Positions 1 through 5,100 of a DNA stretch of 64,000 nt are shown here, piece after piece (the stretch's first letter is position 1; each line of letters opens with the position of its first letter). The position numbers and the translations under genes are program-made. The stretch comes from Enemella evansiae (lineage in GTDB: Bacteria > Pseudomonadota > Alphaproteobacteria > Rhodobacterales > Rhodobacteraceae), in NCBI GenBank assembly GCA_017255395.1, contig JAFKDC010000002.1, forward strand, positions 1 to 64,000, given 5' to 3'. The notes below the pieces were generated by a model. That model was not told the DNA's origin and made no database searches. It was given only the letters and a program-made list of their open reading frames with translations.

Positions 1-285
1 CCTCCGCGCAAGAATGCGCAGCTTTGGAAGCCAACGACGGCGGGCGCCATCGCGCGAAACGAAGCCGTGAAGGCCTGCAAATATCTCGGACGTGCCTTGT
101 GGCGAAAGTTGACCGGGTATCACCGCCGAAGCCGCGCAGAAACGAAGATGCACTGCGTCAAACTTCTTGGCCAAGGCCTCATGGCCCGGGACTTCGACCG
201 ACAGGTCGCTGAGCTCCAAATCCGGATTGCGGTGCTCAACCGCTACACTGCCCTTGGCATACCCGTCACAAAGCCCGTAGGATAA
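1..285 (+). pseudogene. IS5-family transposase, C-terminal part (cut by window start)
   Basis: Open frame from the first base to a stop at 285, giving about 94 residues. It reads like the C-terminus of alphaproteobacterial IS5-family DDE transposases: the segment around YHRRSRAETKMHC carries the conserved YREK-like C-terminal region with the last acidic residue (E), followed by LLGQGLMARDFDRQVAELQ and GIPVT. The start lies outside the window, so it cannot be said whether the upstream part is intact. Just downstream the sequence gatttgtgc resembles the inner half of an IS5-type terminal repeat and is where the IS110 element begins. Confidence 0.8.
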
Positions 286-335
286 GTCCGTCCCGGGAAA
301 GGGGAAGTGCGCTCAGACCCCGATTTGTGCATGTA

Positions 336-346
336 TGGATGCCCCC
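336..346 (+). repeat. IS1111-like subterminal inverted repeat, transposase-distal end
   Basis: TGGATGCCCCC, exact inverse of the sequence at 1700-1710. It lies beyond the 3' end of the transposase gene. Confidence 0.7.
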
Positions 347-604
347 TTTCGTGCAAGTGGTATTTGAACAGCTCAGGCGCGTGATCGGATGCGGTCATGT
401 ATCAGGCCTCATGGTGCGGCTCGAACGTGGCCGCAGGCCGTTATGGCGATGCGCGGGTCAGAGGCAAATCAACAGAGCGAGCTCTTCGGCTCCACGACAA
501 ATGCTGCTTTCTCCAACCCGGATCTTGTCGATCCTTTGCCCTTACTGTTCAGTGACCTCCTCACACGCCCGACGTACCGAGGCGCGATGGCAAGCTTTGC
601 TCTG
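347..604 (-). ncRNA. Non-coding end of the IS110 element; candidate bridge-RNA region
   Basis: About 258 bp with no credible gene between the transposase stop and the distal inverted repeat. In IS1111-subgroup elements the transposase-distal non-coding end is known to encode the bispecific guide (bridge) RNA used by the recombinase. That this stretch encodes one is inferred from position and length only; I did not fold it or identify target- and donor-binding loops. Several short self-complementary stretches are visible (for example gagcgagctcttcggctc near 475-492). Confidence 0.35.
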
Positions 605-1633
605 TCATGCCATCGTCGCCGCCGGGTTCCGGTAATCTTCCTGTTTAGTCATCATGGCCCAGAGACCTCGCGCCATTTTGTTCGCCAAGGCGACAGCGGC
701 AACCATGCGTGGCTTGCGCCCACGCAAGCGAACAAGCCATCCATGTTTTGAGCTGCCATAGCGCTCGACCGCCTGCAGCACAGCCATTGCGCCGGAGATC
801 AGGAGCCTTCGGATGTCCCGCTGTCCCATCTTCGAGGTTTTGCCCAGGCGTGGTTTGCCTCCTGTCGAATGCTGGCGGGGCACGAGCCCCAACCACGCGG
901 CAAAGTCCCTACCGCGCCGAAAGCTGGTCAGATCAGGTGCAAATGTTTCAATCGCCAATGCCGTGATCGGCCCGACCCCGGGCATGGTTTGAGCACGACG
1001 CGTCGATGCTGCTTCCTTCGTAGCTTGGCCCATCTTGCGGTCGAGTTCCGCAATGCGTTCACTCAACCCTTCGATCGCGTTCAGATACATCTGGCCGAGG
1101 TCTCGGACCGTGGCGGGCAAGCGCGTGTTCACGTCGCCGATGGCGTCCGCAAGCTTCTTGAGCTGGGCAACTCCTCGCGCAGCGACCAGGCCATGTTCGG
1201 CAAGATGCCCGCGAAGGGCGTTGATCATTTGAGTGCGCTGGCCGACAAACATCTGCCGCGTTCGAAACAGCATCGCGCGGGCTTGCTGGTCTTCGGTCTT
1301 CAAAGCCACAAAGCGCATTGTCGGACGCACCGCAGCTTCCACGATCGCCTCGGCATCTGCGCAATCGTTCTTCTGACGTTTGACGAATGGCTTCACGTAG
1401 ACCGGCGGGATCAGGCGCACTTCATGTCCAAGCTTCTCGAAGGCGCGGCCCCAGCCATGCGCCGTCGCACACGCCTCCATGGCGACAACGCACCGCGGTA
1501 CCTGAGACATGAACGCAAGCAGCTGGCCACGCGAAAGCCTTTTGCGAAATACGACGGACCCGTCGTGACCGGCACCGTGCAGGTGGAAAATGCGCTTTGC
1601 CAGATCGATCCCGATAATCGTAACCTCGGACAT
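605..1633 (-). CDS. IS110-family transposase (DEDD)
   Basis: 342-residue RuvC-like DEDD recombinase. The N-terminal DEDD domain shows GIDLAK (first Asp, residue 8), VVAMEA (Glu) and NDCADAEAI (paired Asp), and the C-terminal transposase_20 domain shows MPGVGPITA and GKTSKMGQRDIRRLLISGAM with the Ser that acts as nucleophile in this family. The start at 1633 is preceded by a strong AAGGAGGG ribosome-binding site; an in-frame upstream start would include that site and is rejected. No frameshift or stop is seen, so the enzyme may be active. Confidence 0.92.
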   Translation of the reverse strand: MSEVTIIGIDLAKRIFHLHGAGHDGSVVFRKRLSRGQLLAFMSQVPRCVVAMEACATAHGWGRAFEKLGHEVRLIPPVYVKPFVKRQKNDCADAEAIVEAAVRPTMRFVALKTEDQQARAMLFRTRQMFVGQRTQMINALRGHLAEHGLVAARGVAQLKKLADAIGDVNTRLPATVRDLGQMYLNAIEGLSERIAELDRKMGQATKEAASTRRAQTMPGVGPITALAIETFAPDLTSFRRGRDFAAWLGLVPRQHSTGGKPRLGKTSKMGQRDIRRLLISGAMAVLQAVERYGSSKHGWLVRLRGRKPRMVAAVALANKMARGLWAMMTKQEDYRNPAATMA

Positions 1634-1699
1634 GGATGCTCCCTCCTTCTGTGATGGCTTCAACACGCATCACATTGGCACATTGCGATGCCGTCAGGT

Positions 1700-1710
1700 G
1701 GGGGCATCCA
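1700..1710 (-). repeat. IS1111-like subterminal inverted repeat, transposase-proximal end
   Basis: GGGGGCATCCA, the exact inverse of 336-346, 67 bp upstream of the transposase start. Confidence 0.7.
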
Positions 1711-1822
1711 CGCCATCAACAGAGCCGATCCCCCGGCCCCTCTCGGCAGCGCAGGACGTGCCAGGACACGGGCGTTCCGGTCTCCGGCGGCAAGGCTCCG
1801 GCGGAGAACCGGACCTGACCCC

Positions 1823-2116
1823 TCAGGCGGCGGGTTGCCAGTTCATCGTCGTGAAGTCCTCGCGGAAGGCGAAGCGGGCGAGGTGGTCGTCGATGATCGC
1901 CCGGGCGCGCGGCAGGCCCTCGGCGCTGTCCGCCTCGATCTCGATGGTCAGCCCCTCGGGATCGGCCCGCAGCTGCGCCGGACCCGTGGGCAGGGCGGCG
2001 GTGCCCTGTTCGGCGTCATAGGTGACGGCGATCTTGTGTTCGAAGTGCTTGCAGAGCTGTTGCAGGTATTTCGATCCGTTCGGAGTCTCGAAGCGCCCGA
2101 TTTCGTGATGTGCCAT
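1823..2116 (-). CDS. DUF2218 family protein
   Basis: 97 residues, full length for DUF2218. Typical family features are RFETPNGSKYLQQLCKHF at the N-terminus, GPAQLRADPEGL in the middle and the closing HLARFAFREDF. The start is preceded by an AAAGGAAAG ribosome-binding site. It is transcribed away from the iron-chelate ABC transporter next door. Family members are repeatedly found beside iron/siderophore uptake genes, so a role linked to iron or siderophore handling is likely, but the biochemical activity is not known to me. Confidence 0.85.
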   Translation of the reverse strand: MAHHEIGRFETPNGSKYLQQLCKHFEHKIAVTYDAEQGTAALPTGPAQLRADPEGLTIEIEADSAEGLPRARAIIDDHLARFAFREDFTTMNWQPAA

Positions 2117-2163
2117 GTCTTTCCTTTCCGAGTGTTTTTGTCAGAATGGGGATTGCGGCGGCG

Positions 2164-2173
2164 GATTGCAATC
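2164..2173. promoter_or_regulatory. Short palindrome in the DUF2218 / iron-transporter divergent promoter region
   Basis: GATTGCAATC, a perfect 10-bp palindrome in the 135-bp gap between the divergent genes. Position fits an operator for an iron regulator, but it is too short to assign to Fur/Mur, RirA or Irr. Confidence 0.25.
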
Positions 2174-2251
2174 GTCTACCACCGGCGCGACATGCGAAGC
2201 CAACCCAAGCGGGCCAGCCACGCGCAGACATATGCCCTGAAAGGAGCACCC

Positions 2252-3157
2252 ATGCGCACCCGCCTTCTTGCCGGCCTCGCCGCGCTGACCCTTGCCGCGC
2301 CGGTTCTGGCGCAGGACCTGACCGTCGAGACCGCTACCGGGCCGGTCCAGGTCGGCGCCAATCCCGAAACGGTTGCGGTCTTCGACATTGCCGCGCTCGA
2401 CACGCTGACCGCGCTTGGCGTGCCGGTCGCGGGTGTGCCGAACCCGGTCTACCTGTCCAGCCTGTCGGAGGTGGCGGCACAGGCGCAGGCCGTGGGCACG
2501 CTCTTCGAGCCGGACTTCGAGGCGCTGGCGGTCCTGCAGCCCGACCTGATCGTGGTCGGCGGGCGCTCGTCCGAGCAGCTGGGGCCGGTGTCGGATATCG
2601 CGCCCGCCATCGATATGACCATCTGGGGCGACGACCTGCCGGGGCAGGCCCGCGCGCGCATCGCCGCCTATGGCGCCCTGTTCGGCAAGGAGGCCGAGGC
2701 CGAGGCGCTGACCGCCGATCTGGACGCCAAGGTCGCCGAGGCGAAAGAGGCGGTCGCAGGCAAGGGCAGCGGCCTGATCCTGCTGACCAATGGCGGCAAG
2801 GTCTCCGTCTACGGCGCGGGCAGCCGCTTTGGCTGGCTGCACAGCGAGATCGGCCTGCCCGAGGCGGTCGACGGACTGGACGCCGAGAACCACGGCCAGC
2901 CGGTGTCCTTCGAGTTCCTCGCCGAGCACGATCCCGAGTGGCTGTTGGTGATCGACCGGGGCGCCGCCATCGGCGCCGAGGGCGAGGCCGCGGCGGCGAC
3001 GCTGGACAACCCGCTGGTGGCCAAGACCACGGCGGCCCGCGAAGGGCAGATCGTCTACCTCGACGCCGCGCCGCTTTACATCGCGGCGGGTGGCGCCGGG
3101 GCGATGATGCACACGCTGGATCAGGTCATCGCGGCCTTCGGCGCCTCCGAAGGCTGA
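2252..3157 (+). CDS. Siderophore ABC transporter, periplasmic substrate-binding protein
   Basis: 301 residues of the FecB/CeuE/YclQ-like class III binding-protein family. A signal peptide (residues 1-20, cleavage after APVLA) exports it to the periplasm, where it should bind a ferric siderophore and deliver it to the two permeases encoded downstream. The body shows the typical start VAVFDIAALDTLTALGV, the LQPDLIVVGGR motif and a C-terminal YIAAGG/MMHTLDQV helix. An AAGGAG site sits 5 bases before the chosen ATG. It is first in a tight four-gene operon (4-bp gap to the next gene). Substrate is inferred from family; haem or other chelates remain possible. Confidence 0.88.
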   Translation: MRTRLLAGLAALTLAAPVLAQDLTVETATGPVQVGANPETVAVFDIAALDTLTALGVPVAGVPNPVYLSSLSEVAAQAQAVGTLFEPDFEALAVLQPDLIVVGGRSSEQLGPVSDIAPAIDMTIWGDDLPGQARARIAAYGALFGKEAEAEALTADLDAKVAEAKEAVAGKGSGLILLTNGGKVSVYGAGSRFGWLHSEIGLPEAVDGLDAENHGQPVSFEFLAEHDPEWLLVIDRGAAIGAEGEAAAATLDNPLVAKTTAAREGQIVYLDAAPLYIAAGGAGAMMHTLDQVIAAFGASEG

Positions 3158-3161
3158 TCGC

Positions 3162-4094
3162 TTGCGCCTTACCCTCTGCCTTGTCGCCCTTGCCGGGCTG
3201 ATCGCCCTCAGCCTTGCGCTGGGGGCGGCGTCGCTGTCGCAGGACGGCGGCTGGCTGATCTGGGTCAGCCGCCTGCCGCGCACCGCCGCCGCGCTTCTGG
3301 CGGGGGCCGGGCTGGCGCTGGCGGGGGTGGTGGTGCAGCAGGTGGTGCAGAACCGGCTGGTGGAACCCTCGCTGACCGGCACGCCCGAGGCGGCGATGCT
3401 GGGGCTGCTGGCGGTGACGCTGATCGCGCCGGGCATGGCGGTGGCGGGCAAGATGCTGGTCGCGGCGGGCTCTGCGCTGGCGGGGATGCTGGGCTTTCTG
3501 GCGCTGGCCGACCGGGTGCCGCGACAGGACCCGATGCTCTTGCCGATCGTGGGCCTCGTCTACGGCGGCATCCTCGGCGCGACCGCGACATGGTTCGCGT
3601 GGAGCGCGGACCTGATGCAATACCTCGGCACTTGGCGGCTGGGGGAGTTCTCGGGCGTGGTGCAGGGCCGCTACGAATGGCTCTGGGCCGTGGCTGCGCT
3701 GGCGGCGCTGCTGTATGTCGTGGCGGACCGCATCACCATCCTCGGGCTGGGCGAGACGCAGGCGCGGTCGCTGGGCCTGAACTATGGGCGGACGCGGGCG
3801 CTGGGGCTGGTCGTGGTCTCCATGCTGACGGCGCTGGTGCTGGTGACGGTCGGGGTCTTTCCCTTCGTCGGACTGGTGGCGCCCAACCTGATCTCGCGCT
3901 GGCGGGGCGACAACCTGCGCGCCAACCTCGGTGTCATAGCCCTGTTCGGAGCGGCGCTGGTGCTGGCCGCCGACGTATTGGGCCGCCTGATCCGCTACCC
4001 CTACGAGATCCCTGCGGCGACGGTCTTTGCTGTCTTCGGCGCGGGCGTCTTCCTGTGGCTCCTGCACGCAAGGCCGGGGCGGGCGCATGGCTGA
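3162..4094 (+). CDS. Iron-chelate ABC transporter permease, FecCD family (first)
   Basis: 310-residue inner-membrane protein with about nine hydrophobic segments. FecCD hallmarks are RLPRTAAALLAGAGLALAG near residue 35, GLGETQARSLGLNYGRTR (BtuC-like coupling region) and FPFVGLVAPNLISRW. It begins with TTG four bases after the upstream stop, with GAAGG in the previous gene's end as ribosome-binding site, and overlaps the second permease by 8 bp. Together with that protein it should form the heterodimeric channel of the siderophore importer (CeuB/CeuC, YclN/YclO type). Confidence 0.9.
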   Translation: MRLTLCLVALAGLIALSLALGAASLSQDGGWLIWVSRLPRTAAALLAGAGLALAGVVVQQVVQNRLVEPSLTGTPEAAMLGLLAVTLIAPGMAVAGKMLVAAGSALAGMLGFLALADRVPRQDPMLLPIVGLVYGGILGATATWFAWSADLMQYLGTWRLGEFSGVVQGRYEWLWAVAALAALLYVVADRITILGLGETQARSLGLNYGRTRALGLVVVSMLTALVLVTVGVFPFVGLVAPNLISRWRGDNLRANLGVIALFGAALVLAADVLGRLIRYPYEIPAATVFAVFGAGVFLWLLHARPGRAHG

Positions 4095-5100
4095 CCGGGG
4101 CATCGACACCGGGCAGGGGCACCTGCCGCTGGCCGCCGAAGCGGCGGGGGCGTCGGGGTCGGCAGGCCGGCTTTGGGTCATGGCGGGCGTTCTGGCGGTC
4201 CTGTCGGCCCTCTTCCTGCTCTGGGGGCTGCGCGCGCCCTACGGGTTCATCCTCGAACTGCGGGGCGGCAAGCTGGCGGCGCTGGTCTGCGTGGGCGCGG
4301 CGACCGGTGCGGCGACGGTGCTGTTCCAGACCGTGGCCATGAACCGGCTTCTGACGCCGGGGGTCGTGGGTTTCGACGCGCTCTTCGTGCTGATGCAGAC
4401 GCTGCTGGTGGCGGCCCTGGGCGGCGTCGGGCTGGCGCAGGTGCCCGAGGCGCTGCGCTTTGTGCTTGAGACCGGGGTGCTGATGGCGGCGGCCATGGCG
4501 CTGTTTGGCGTGCTGCTGCGGCGCGATGCGGCGGATGTGACGCGGATGATCCTGACCGGCGTGATCCTCGGGGTGCTGCTGCGCGGGCTGTCCGAGATGG
4601 TGCAGCGCATGCTGGACCCGGCCGAGTTCTCGGTGGTGCAGCAGGCGGTCGTGGCCTCGTTCAACCGGGTCGACGGCGGGCAGATGGCCGTGGCGGGCGC
4701 GTTTCTGGCGCTGGCCATGGGGCTGGCGCTGCGGATGGCCCCGGCGCTGGACGTGGCCGGGCTGGGCCGGGCCACGGCGCGCGGGCTGGGGCTGAACCAC
4801 GACCGGGTGGTGATGCGCGCGCTTCTGCTGATCGCGGCGATGGTTTCGGTCTCGACCGCTCTGGTCGGGCCGATCACCTTCCTTGGCCTTCTGGCGGCCA
4901 GCCTTGCGCGGCAGATCTGCGACACCCACCGGCACGCGGTGCTGATCCCGGCCTCGGCGCTGATCGGCGCGGTGATCCTCGTGGCCGGACAGGCGGTCTT
5001 CGAACGCCTGCTGGGGATGCAATCGGCGCTGGCCGTGGTGGTGGAATTCTTCGGCGGGCTGGTGTTCCTCGCCCTCGTGTTGAGAAAGGTGCGGACATGA
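4087..5100 (+). CDS. Iron-chelate ABC transporter permease, FecCD family (second)
   Basis: 337 residues, multi-spanning FecCD permease. A hydrophilic N-terminal tail of about 30 residues precedes the first membrane helix. Motifs include GAATGAATVLFQTVAMNRLLTPG, LGLNHDRVV in the ATPase-coupling region and GPITFLGLLAASLARQ. The ATG overlaps the end of the first permease by 8 bp, and its own stop overlaps the ATPase start (ATGA), so the three membrane-complex genes are translationally coupled. Confidence 0.9.
   Translation: MADRGIDTGQGHLPLAAEAAGASGSAGRLWVMAGVLAVLSALFLLWGLRAPYGFILELRGGKLAALVCVGAATGAATVLFQTVAMNRLLTPGVVGFDALFVLMQTLLVAALGGVGLAQVPEALRFVLETGVLMAAAMALFGVLLRRDAADVTRMILTGVILGVLLRGLSEMVQRMLDPAEFSVVQQAVVASFNRVDGGQMAVAGAFLALAMGLALRMAPALDVAGLGRATARGLGLNHDRVVMRALLLIAAMVSVSTALVGPITFLGLLAASLARQICDTHRHAVLIPASALIGAVILVAGQAVFERLLGMQSALAVVVEFFGGLVFLALVLRKVRT

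Follow-up and report, generated by a model that had tools for sequence, protein, structure and literature searches.

The RNA-guided mechanism and the element family treated here are already known (PMC11187229, PMC11208160). The IS1111-group elements ISEc11, ISKpn4, ISPst6 and ISPa11 (PMC11187229) carry a DEDD transposase, subterminal inverted repeats of 11-13 bp and a downstream non-coding region with two guides, in which the top-strand complement precedes the bottom-strand match, and their relatives show natural retargeting. The present element is like them in all these respects and differs in its target, an IS5 terminal repeat. IS621 and the IS110-group bridge RNA elements (PMC11208160) likewise combine a target loop with a donor loop in their RNA and share a core dinucleotide between junctions, but in the IS110 group the RNA precedes the gene and the guides come in the opposite order (PMC11187229), whereas the non-coding region is downstream here. 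With respect to IS4321 / IS5075 (Partridge and Hall 2003), the difference lies in the target, which is the IS5 family in our case. ISPye46 of Paracoccus yeei (PMC11578231) is alike in belonging to the IS110 family, in TG direct repeats and in adjoining IS5 elements in arrays; by its published description alone it measures 1361 bp, against 1387 bp for the element below. No statement on IS1111 targeting of IS5 terminal repeats was found in searches of the open-licence literature (subscription papers lie mostly outside it, and ISfinder was not covered), and no priority is claimed.

An IS1111-group (IS110 family) insertion sequence was located at 332-1718, minus strand, of the window (the whole analysed stretch of 64,000 nucleotides), inside the terminal repeat of an IS5 element. 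With a probability of roughly 0.93, it is an IS1111-group element guided by a seekRNA (bridge RNA) to the tip of the IS5 terminal repeat. By analogy with published experiments on other IS1111 elements, the downstream non-coding end would be transcribed and processed into the seekRNA. In its target loop each strand of GGCTCTGT-TG-CACAAATC, which forms the tip of the IS5-family terminal repeat, has a guide of its own, and the donor loop would match the element's own joined ends. A circular form would be produced, and catalysis by the DEDD transposase with its RNA would insert it at the TG core, with the IS5 tip expected always on the upstream side of the transposase.

Boundaries were set by comparison with six uninterrupted IS5 ends elsewhere in the window's genome (contigs C6, C10, C30, C46, C50 and C60; sequence GATTTGTGCAACAGAGCC), which have 119 bases of the window's IS5 in common, then read GATTTGTGCA/ACAGAGCC (slashes mark junctions), and then enter six different flanks. 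The occupied site in the window reads GATTTGTGCA/332...1716/CA/ACAGAGCC. Because the empty ends read GATTTGTGCAACAGAGCC, the CA (TG on the transposase strand) is common to both junctions and the element measures 1387 bp with one copy of this core dinucleotide; the core lies at 330-331 (right junction) and 1717-1718 (left junction) by empty-site and relative comparison, and the limits are 332-1718 or, equivalently, 330-1716. The original prediction had given 331-1716, which these empty sites correct. It had also proposed that the two flanks join into an IS5-type end and that uninterrupted copies be sought; the six ends bear out the join in substance, but as written it holds one base too many. 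Perfect 11-bp subterminal inverted repeats were present as claimed at 336-346 (right) and 1700-1710 (left, in transposase orientation), within the 11-13 bp of the IS1111 group. Beyond them lie the left end ATGGCG (1711-1716, minus strand) and the right end TACA (332-335, minus strand), both common to relatives with differing flanks. In the IS1111 group, as in ISEc11, ISKpn4, ISPst6 and ISPa11, the left end extends 7 bp and the right end 3 bp past the repeat with no added bases; here 1387 bp are added, and the ends fit 7/3 only if the repeat is taken as 12 bp with an outermost mismatch. Counted otherwise, they are 8 and 4, or, if TG is duplicated, 6 and 4. The same left junction stands at the start or end of contigs C21 and C29, where CAACAGAGCC comes next and different DNA after it, so that together with the window three IS5 ends carry the element; for the C21 and C29 copies only junctions were seen, as the element bodies were not separately assembled.

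The host IS5 is represented by its 3' part at 1-331 (plus strand), of which 213-331 recur before the six other IS5 ends, and by the outer tip of its terminal repeat, ACAGAGCC, at 1719-1726 (plus strand), displaced by the insertion according to the empty-site comparison. The transposase C-terminus expected ahead of the element lies at 1-285 and matched NF033579 at 4.8e-24, under the cut-off because it is only a fragment. This truncation is explained by window position 1 being base 1 of contig C2, inside the IS5-family transposase gene. Both marks of the IS5 family, a transposase and a terminal inverted repeat, are present in the host, the former as this fragment under the cut-off and the latter with six intact right-hand ends. 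The other end of the host IS5 was not identified in the window's genome. Seven GGCTTTGTTGCACAAATG ends were considered for it and compared by eye with nine right-hand flanks; no common target-site duplication was evident, and they seem to be part of another IS5.

The transposase gene occupies 605-1666 (minus strand; 353 aa from the GTG at 1666), although homologues suggest a start at the ATG at 1633 rather than at this GTG. The assignment to an IS110-type DEDD transposase was confirmed by profile search with NF033542 (2e-93, 313 bits, cut-off 140), PF01548 and PF02371, giving the DEDD transposase with Transposase_20 C-terminal domain that is characteristic of the IS1111 group. Residues of the DEDD motif and of the C-terminal domain are catalytic in this family. 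Alignment with the ISCro4 transposase (9t56) placed D21, E64, D101, D104 and S267-T268-G269, the DEDD residues having counterparts in ISCro4, and the C-terminal domain in both ISCro4 and IS621. Their catalytic role is taken from PMC11187229.

Directly after the transposase stop lies the predicted 258-nt non-coding stretch (347-604, minus strand), the long downstream non-coding region of the IS1111 group, which would encode the seekRNA (bridge RNA) judging by the alignment of relatives and pair counts. On the transposase strand it reads ...GCAG-C-AUUUGUCG-UG-GAGCCGAAGAGCUC-GCUCUGUUGAU-UUGCC.... The first target guide, AUUUGUCG (495-502, minus strand), pairs through AUUUGU with the inner flank ACAAAT (6 nt) and leaves CG unpaired, thus covering 6 of about 9 IS5-flank bases. 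In relatives the guide reads AUUUGUGC(A); the window copy has CG (495-496) in place of GC, so the pairing beside the core is lost. A hairpin, GAGC-CGAAGA-GCUC (479-492, minus strand), with pairs invariant in 23 relatives, separates the first guide from the second, GCUCUGUUGAU (468-478, minus strand), which repeats the left junction GCTCTGTTG/AT over 11 nt. When the non-coding end was shuffled with dinucleotides kept, 11 of 20,000 versions matched the left junction over at least 11 bases; taken together with the junction geometry, which was seen again in relatives of the element, this argues that the second-guide match is not due to chance. As in other IS1111 seekRNAs (PMC11187229), the top-strand complement stands 5' of the bottom-strand match, with the first guide partly matched in the window copy. 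The target loop is closed by a stem (helix 1) with its 5' arm at 511-519 and its 3' arm at 455-463 (both minus strand; pair counts in relatives). A donor loop matching the element ends is expected from bridge RNA work (PMC11208160), and two putative donor guides were found on the minus strand, CGCCAU at 443-448, the complement of the left end ATGGCG, and AUACAUG at 396-402, equal to the right end plus core; in permutation the right side was significant and the left was not. Folding 347-604 and comparing its loops with the flanks had been proposed: the single-sequence fold was uninformative, being no better than shuffles (z -0.18); the loop guides matched the flanks, the first only over 6 of about 9 bases. 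No Rfam family was found over 347-604 at E up to 1; the single listed match, at 1985-2029, was under its gathering score.

For guide statistics, 80 loci were taken from one scan of genome contigs, and more from plasmid searches and a family search. Ends and repeats were searched automatically in 110 loci, giving 70 usable loci (69 distinct sites), with 40 failed and left out; close relatives were re-mapped by matching known element ends. At the 69 distinct sites, the mean match of a guide was 7.17 nt to its own left flank and 7.32 nt to its own right flank, vs. 5.19 and 5.28 nt for the flanks of other loci, and no permutation out of 10,000 came up to the summed match of 14.49 (permuted mean 10.53, maximum 11.42). 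Between the 3' part of the RNA and its own right end the match spanned 7.08 nt vs. 5.19 permuted (0/10,000; 60 distinct loci); for its own left end the value was 5.13 nt, which 999 of 10,000 permutations reached, no gain over permutation. The helices around the target loop were paired in 98.0% of 666 cells across 23 aligned relatives (slid partners, 28-41%), in line with the expectation that the non-coding end is conserved in other copies, and five helix pairs with changes on both sides were counted, a number reached in 2 of 500 shuffles. A search of 41 genomes with the non-coding DNA gave matches in 3, the window's own genome included. Guide C or T was associated with target C or T (Fisher p = 0.029, 18 loci, L052 and L047 dropped as their target base is neither), a value uncorrected for kinship and given little weight.

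These data bear on two alternatives. Protein alone could recognise the non-coding end as a structure, in which case the guide matches would be relics of flanking DNA captured earlier. RNA steps are drawn here by analogy, and a guide region with 11 nt in common with the junction is what a captured flank would give; against this, the guides keep fixed positions within a conserved loop, both strands are matched in the order that experiments gave for IS1111 elements (PMC11187229), and the right donor guide tracks the right end, which makes such an account very improbable. Still less credible is chance or selection bias, whereby IS5 ends would simply be abundant and neutral with no RNA guidance at all: such ends are indeed common in the window's genome, but exact position and orientation repeat in relatives, guides match their own flanks and retargeted relatives carry matching guides. 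The reading preferred throughout is RNA-guided insertion, and the prediction that the element used an IS5 terminal repeat as its target and holds a guide RNA in its distal end is supported, with the guides now located.

Targets of close relatives were compared at 28 distinct loci (35 entered, less five without a mapped right junction and two repeat insertions). An IS5 transposase match started 20-58 bp past the right junction in 16/28, and within 60 bp of the left junction in 0/28. The adjoining part is mostly the C-terminus (right IS5 end); L016, L045, L058 and L075 have the N-terminus (left end) there. No IS5 transposase stood beside the right junction in the other 12/28, among which L073 has a flank of only 39 bp; L065 and L068 keep the flank TGCACAAATC, and the rest, besides L073, lie elsewhere or are degraded. 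A changed first guide (TTTACTGC or TTTCACTGC) occurs together with the flank GCAGTAAA in L050, L073 and L078, the match being exact in L050 and L078 and with one mismatch in L073. Joining the flanks of L050 gives a single reading frame that spans the RFVAVK stretch of a different IS110-family transposase, which places this copy in a relative's transposase gene. In L054, TCCGTTG stands in guide and flank alike, where other relatives have TCTGTTG or TTTGTTG.

Three copies in the window's genome apparently occupy the same right-hand end of the same IS5, with one inner-side sequence found, as would be expected if IS5 and the IS1111 element moved as one composite and a single insertion had been spread by IS5 transposition. 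This is unlikely: relatives occupy the ends of different IS5 elements, right-hand or left-hand, guide and target change together, and no target duplications of a composite were established. Varied IS5 ends and the co-change of guide and target call for targeting rather than co-mobility.

Targeting by guide also has exceptions. L052 (P. yeei BAA-599), 99% identical to the window copy, lies outside IS5 ends at the site TTG/ACAAAT, where the guide matches 7 nt of the right flank TGACAAAT and, in the left flank, only GTTG. Two further copies in one relative's genome are outside IS5 by their flanks, L153 with a partial guide match and L155 with none. Together with the CG of the window's guide, these cases suggest drift or a starting change of target. 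As separate observations, the IS5 that carries the close relative in Roseovarius (L057) is itself interrupted, a few hundred bases inward, by the gene for another IS110-family transposase, and the many loci L083-L131 form a related clade (transposase about 60% identical) with the conserved right flank AGAAGGTTGGATATCAGGC and the matching guide AACCTTCTC.

A second IS1111 lineage is represented in P. yeei BAA-599 by another IS1111-like element, with an N-terminal identity of about 64-67% to the window's. Eighteen of its 19 distinct left flanks end in GGCTCTG (16), GGCTTTG (1) or GGCGTTG (1), the nineteenth, from a diverged copy, ending in GCCTCTG, and its guides GUGCAACA and GGCUUUGAU spell GGCTTTGTTGCAC. 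The two right ends seen (L231, L232) are not in IS5 ends, so the IS5 link of this element comes from left tips and guides. Both ends of one IS5 (about 1.05 kb) on plasmid NZ_CP020444 of P. yeei FDAARGOS_252 are occupied by a relative from this lineage, which shares 53% identity with the window transposase over 340 aa; the result is an IS110-IS5-IS110 array with left flanks GGCGTTG, right flanks TGTTGCAGAAC, and guides CUGCAACA and GGCGUUGAU. For the P. yeei arrays with ISPye46 and TG repeats, it was left unclear in 2024 whether they are functional elements or reflect preferential insertion (PMC11578231). In the array of NZ_CP020444 each end of a single IS5 holds an IS110-family copy whose guides match, which on the sequence evidence favours preferential insertion, an outline answer to that question from the one array examined. 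We hold at even odds the wider reading that at least two alphaproteobacterial IS1111 lineages have guides independently programmed against the conserved IS5 tips, with cuts 3 bp apart and guides following the end variants GGCTCTGTTGCAC and GGCGTTGTTGCAG, and that one sublineage has moved on to target a conserved part of IS110-family transposase genes; this would be RNA-guided parasitism by one IS family on another, also building the P. yeei arrays. The locus provides a case, resolved down to the guides, in which one insertion sequence family is aimed at another, and the natural guide/target pairs are usable for testing the pairing rules of IS1111 RNAs.

Further observations were made at these and neighbouring loci. 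In the seekRNA region of L231 (reverse strand, 148-197) and L232 (reverse strand, 288-337), a 25-nt unit occurs as two tandem copies; it comprises the first target guide and part of the hairpin. Each of the two IS1111 copies in the NZ_CP020444 array is broken in the non-coding end by a further IS110-family element (L228). A second-lineage remnant with the left flank GGCTTTG (L202/L229) lies on contig C36 of the window's genome and shares its contig end with a fragment of an IS5 transposase. To the right of the element, window positions 1823-5100 hold a small minus-strand ORF and, from a look at the sequence, an apparent iron-siderophore uptake cluster.
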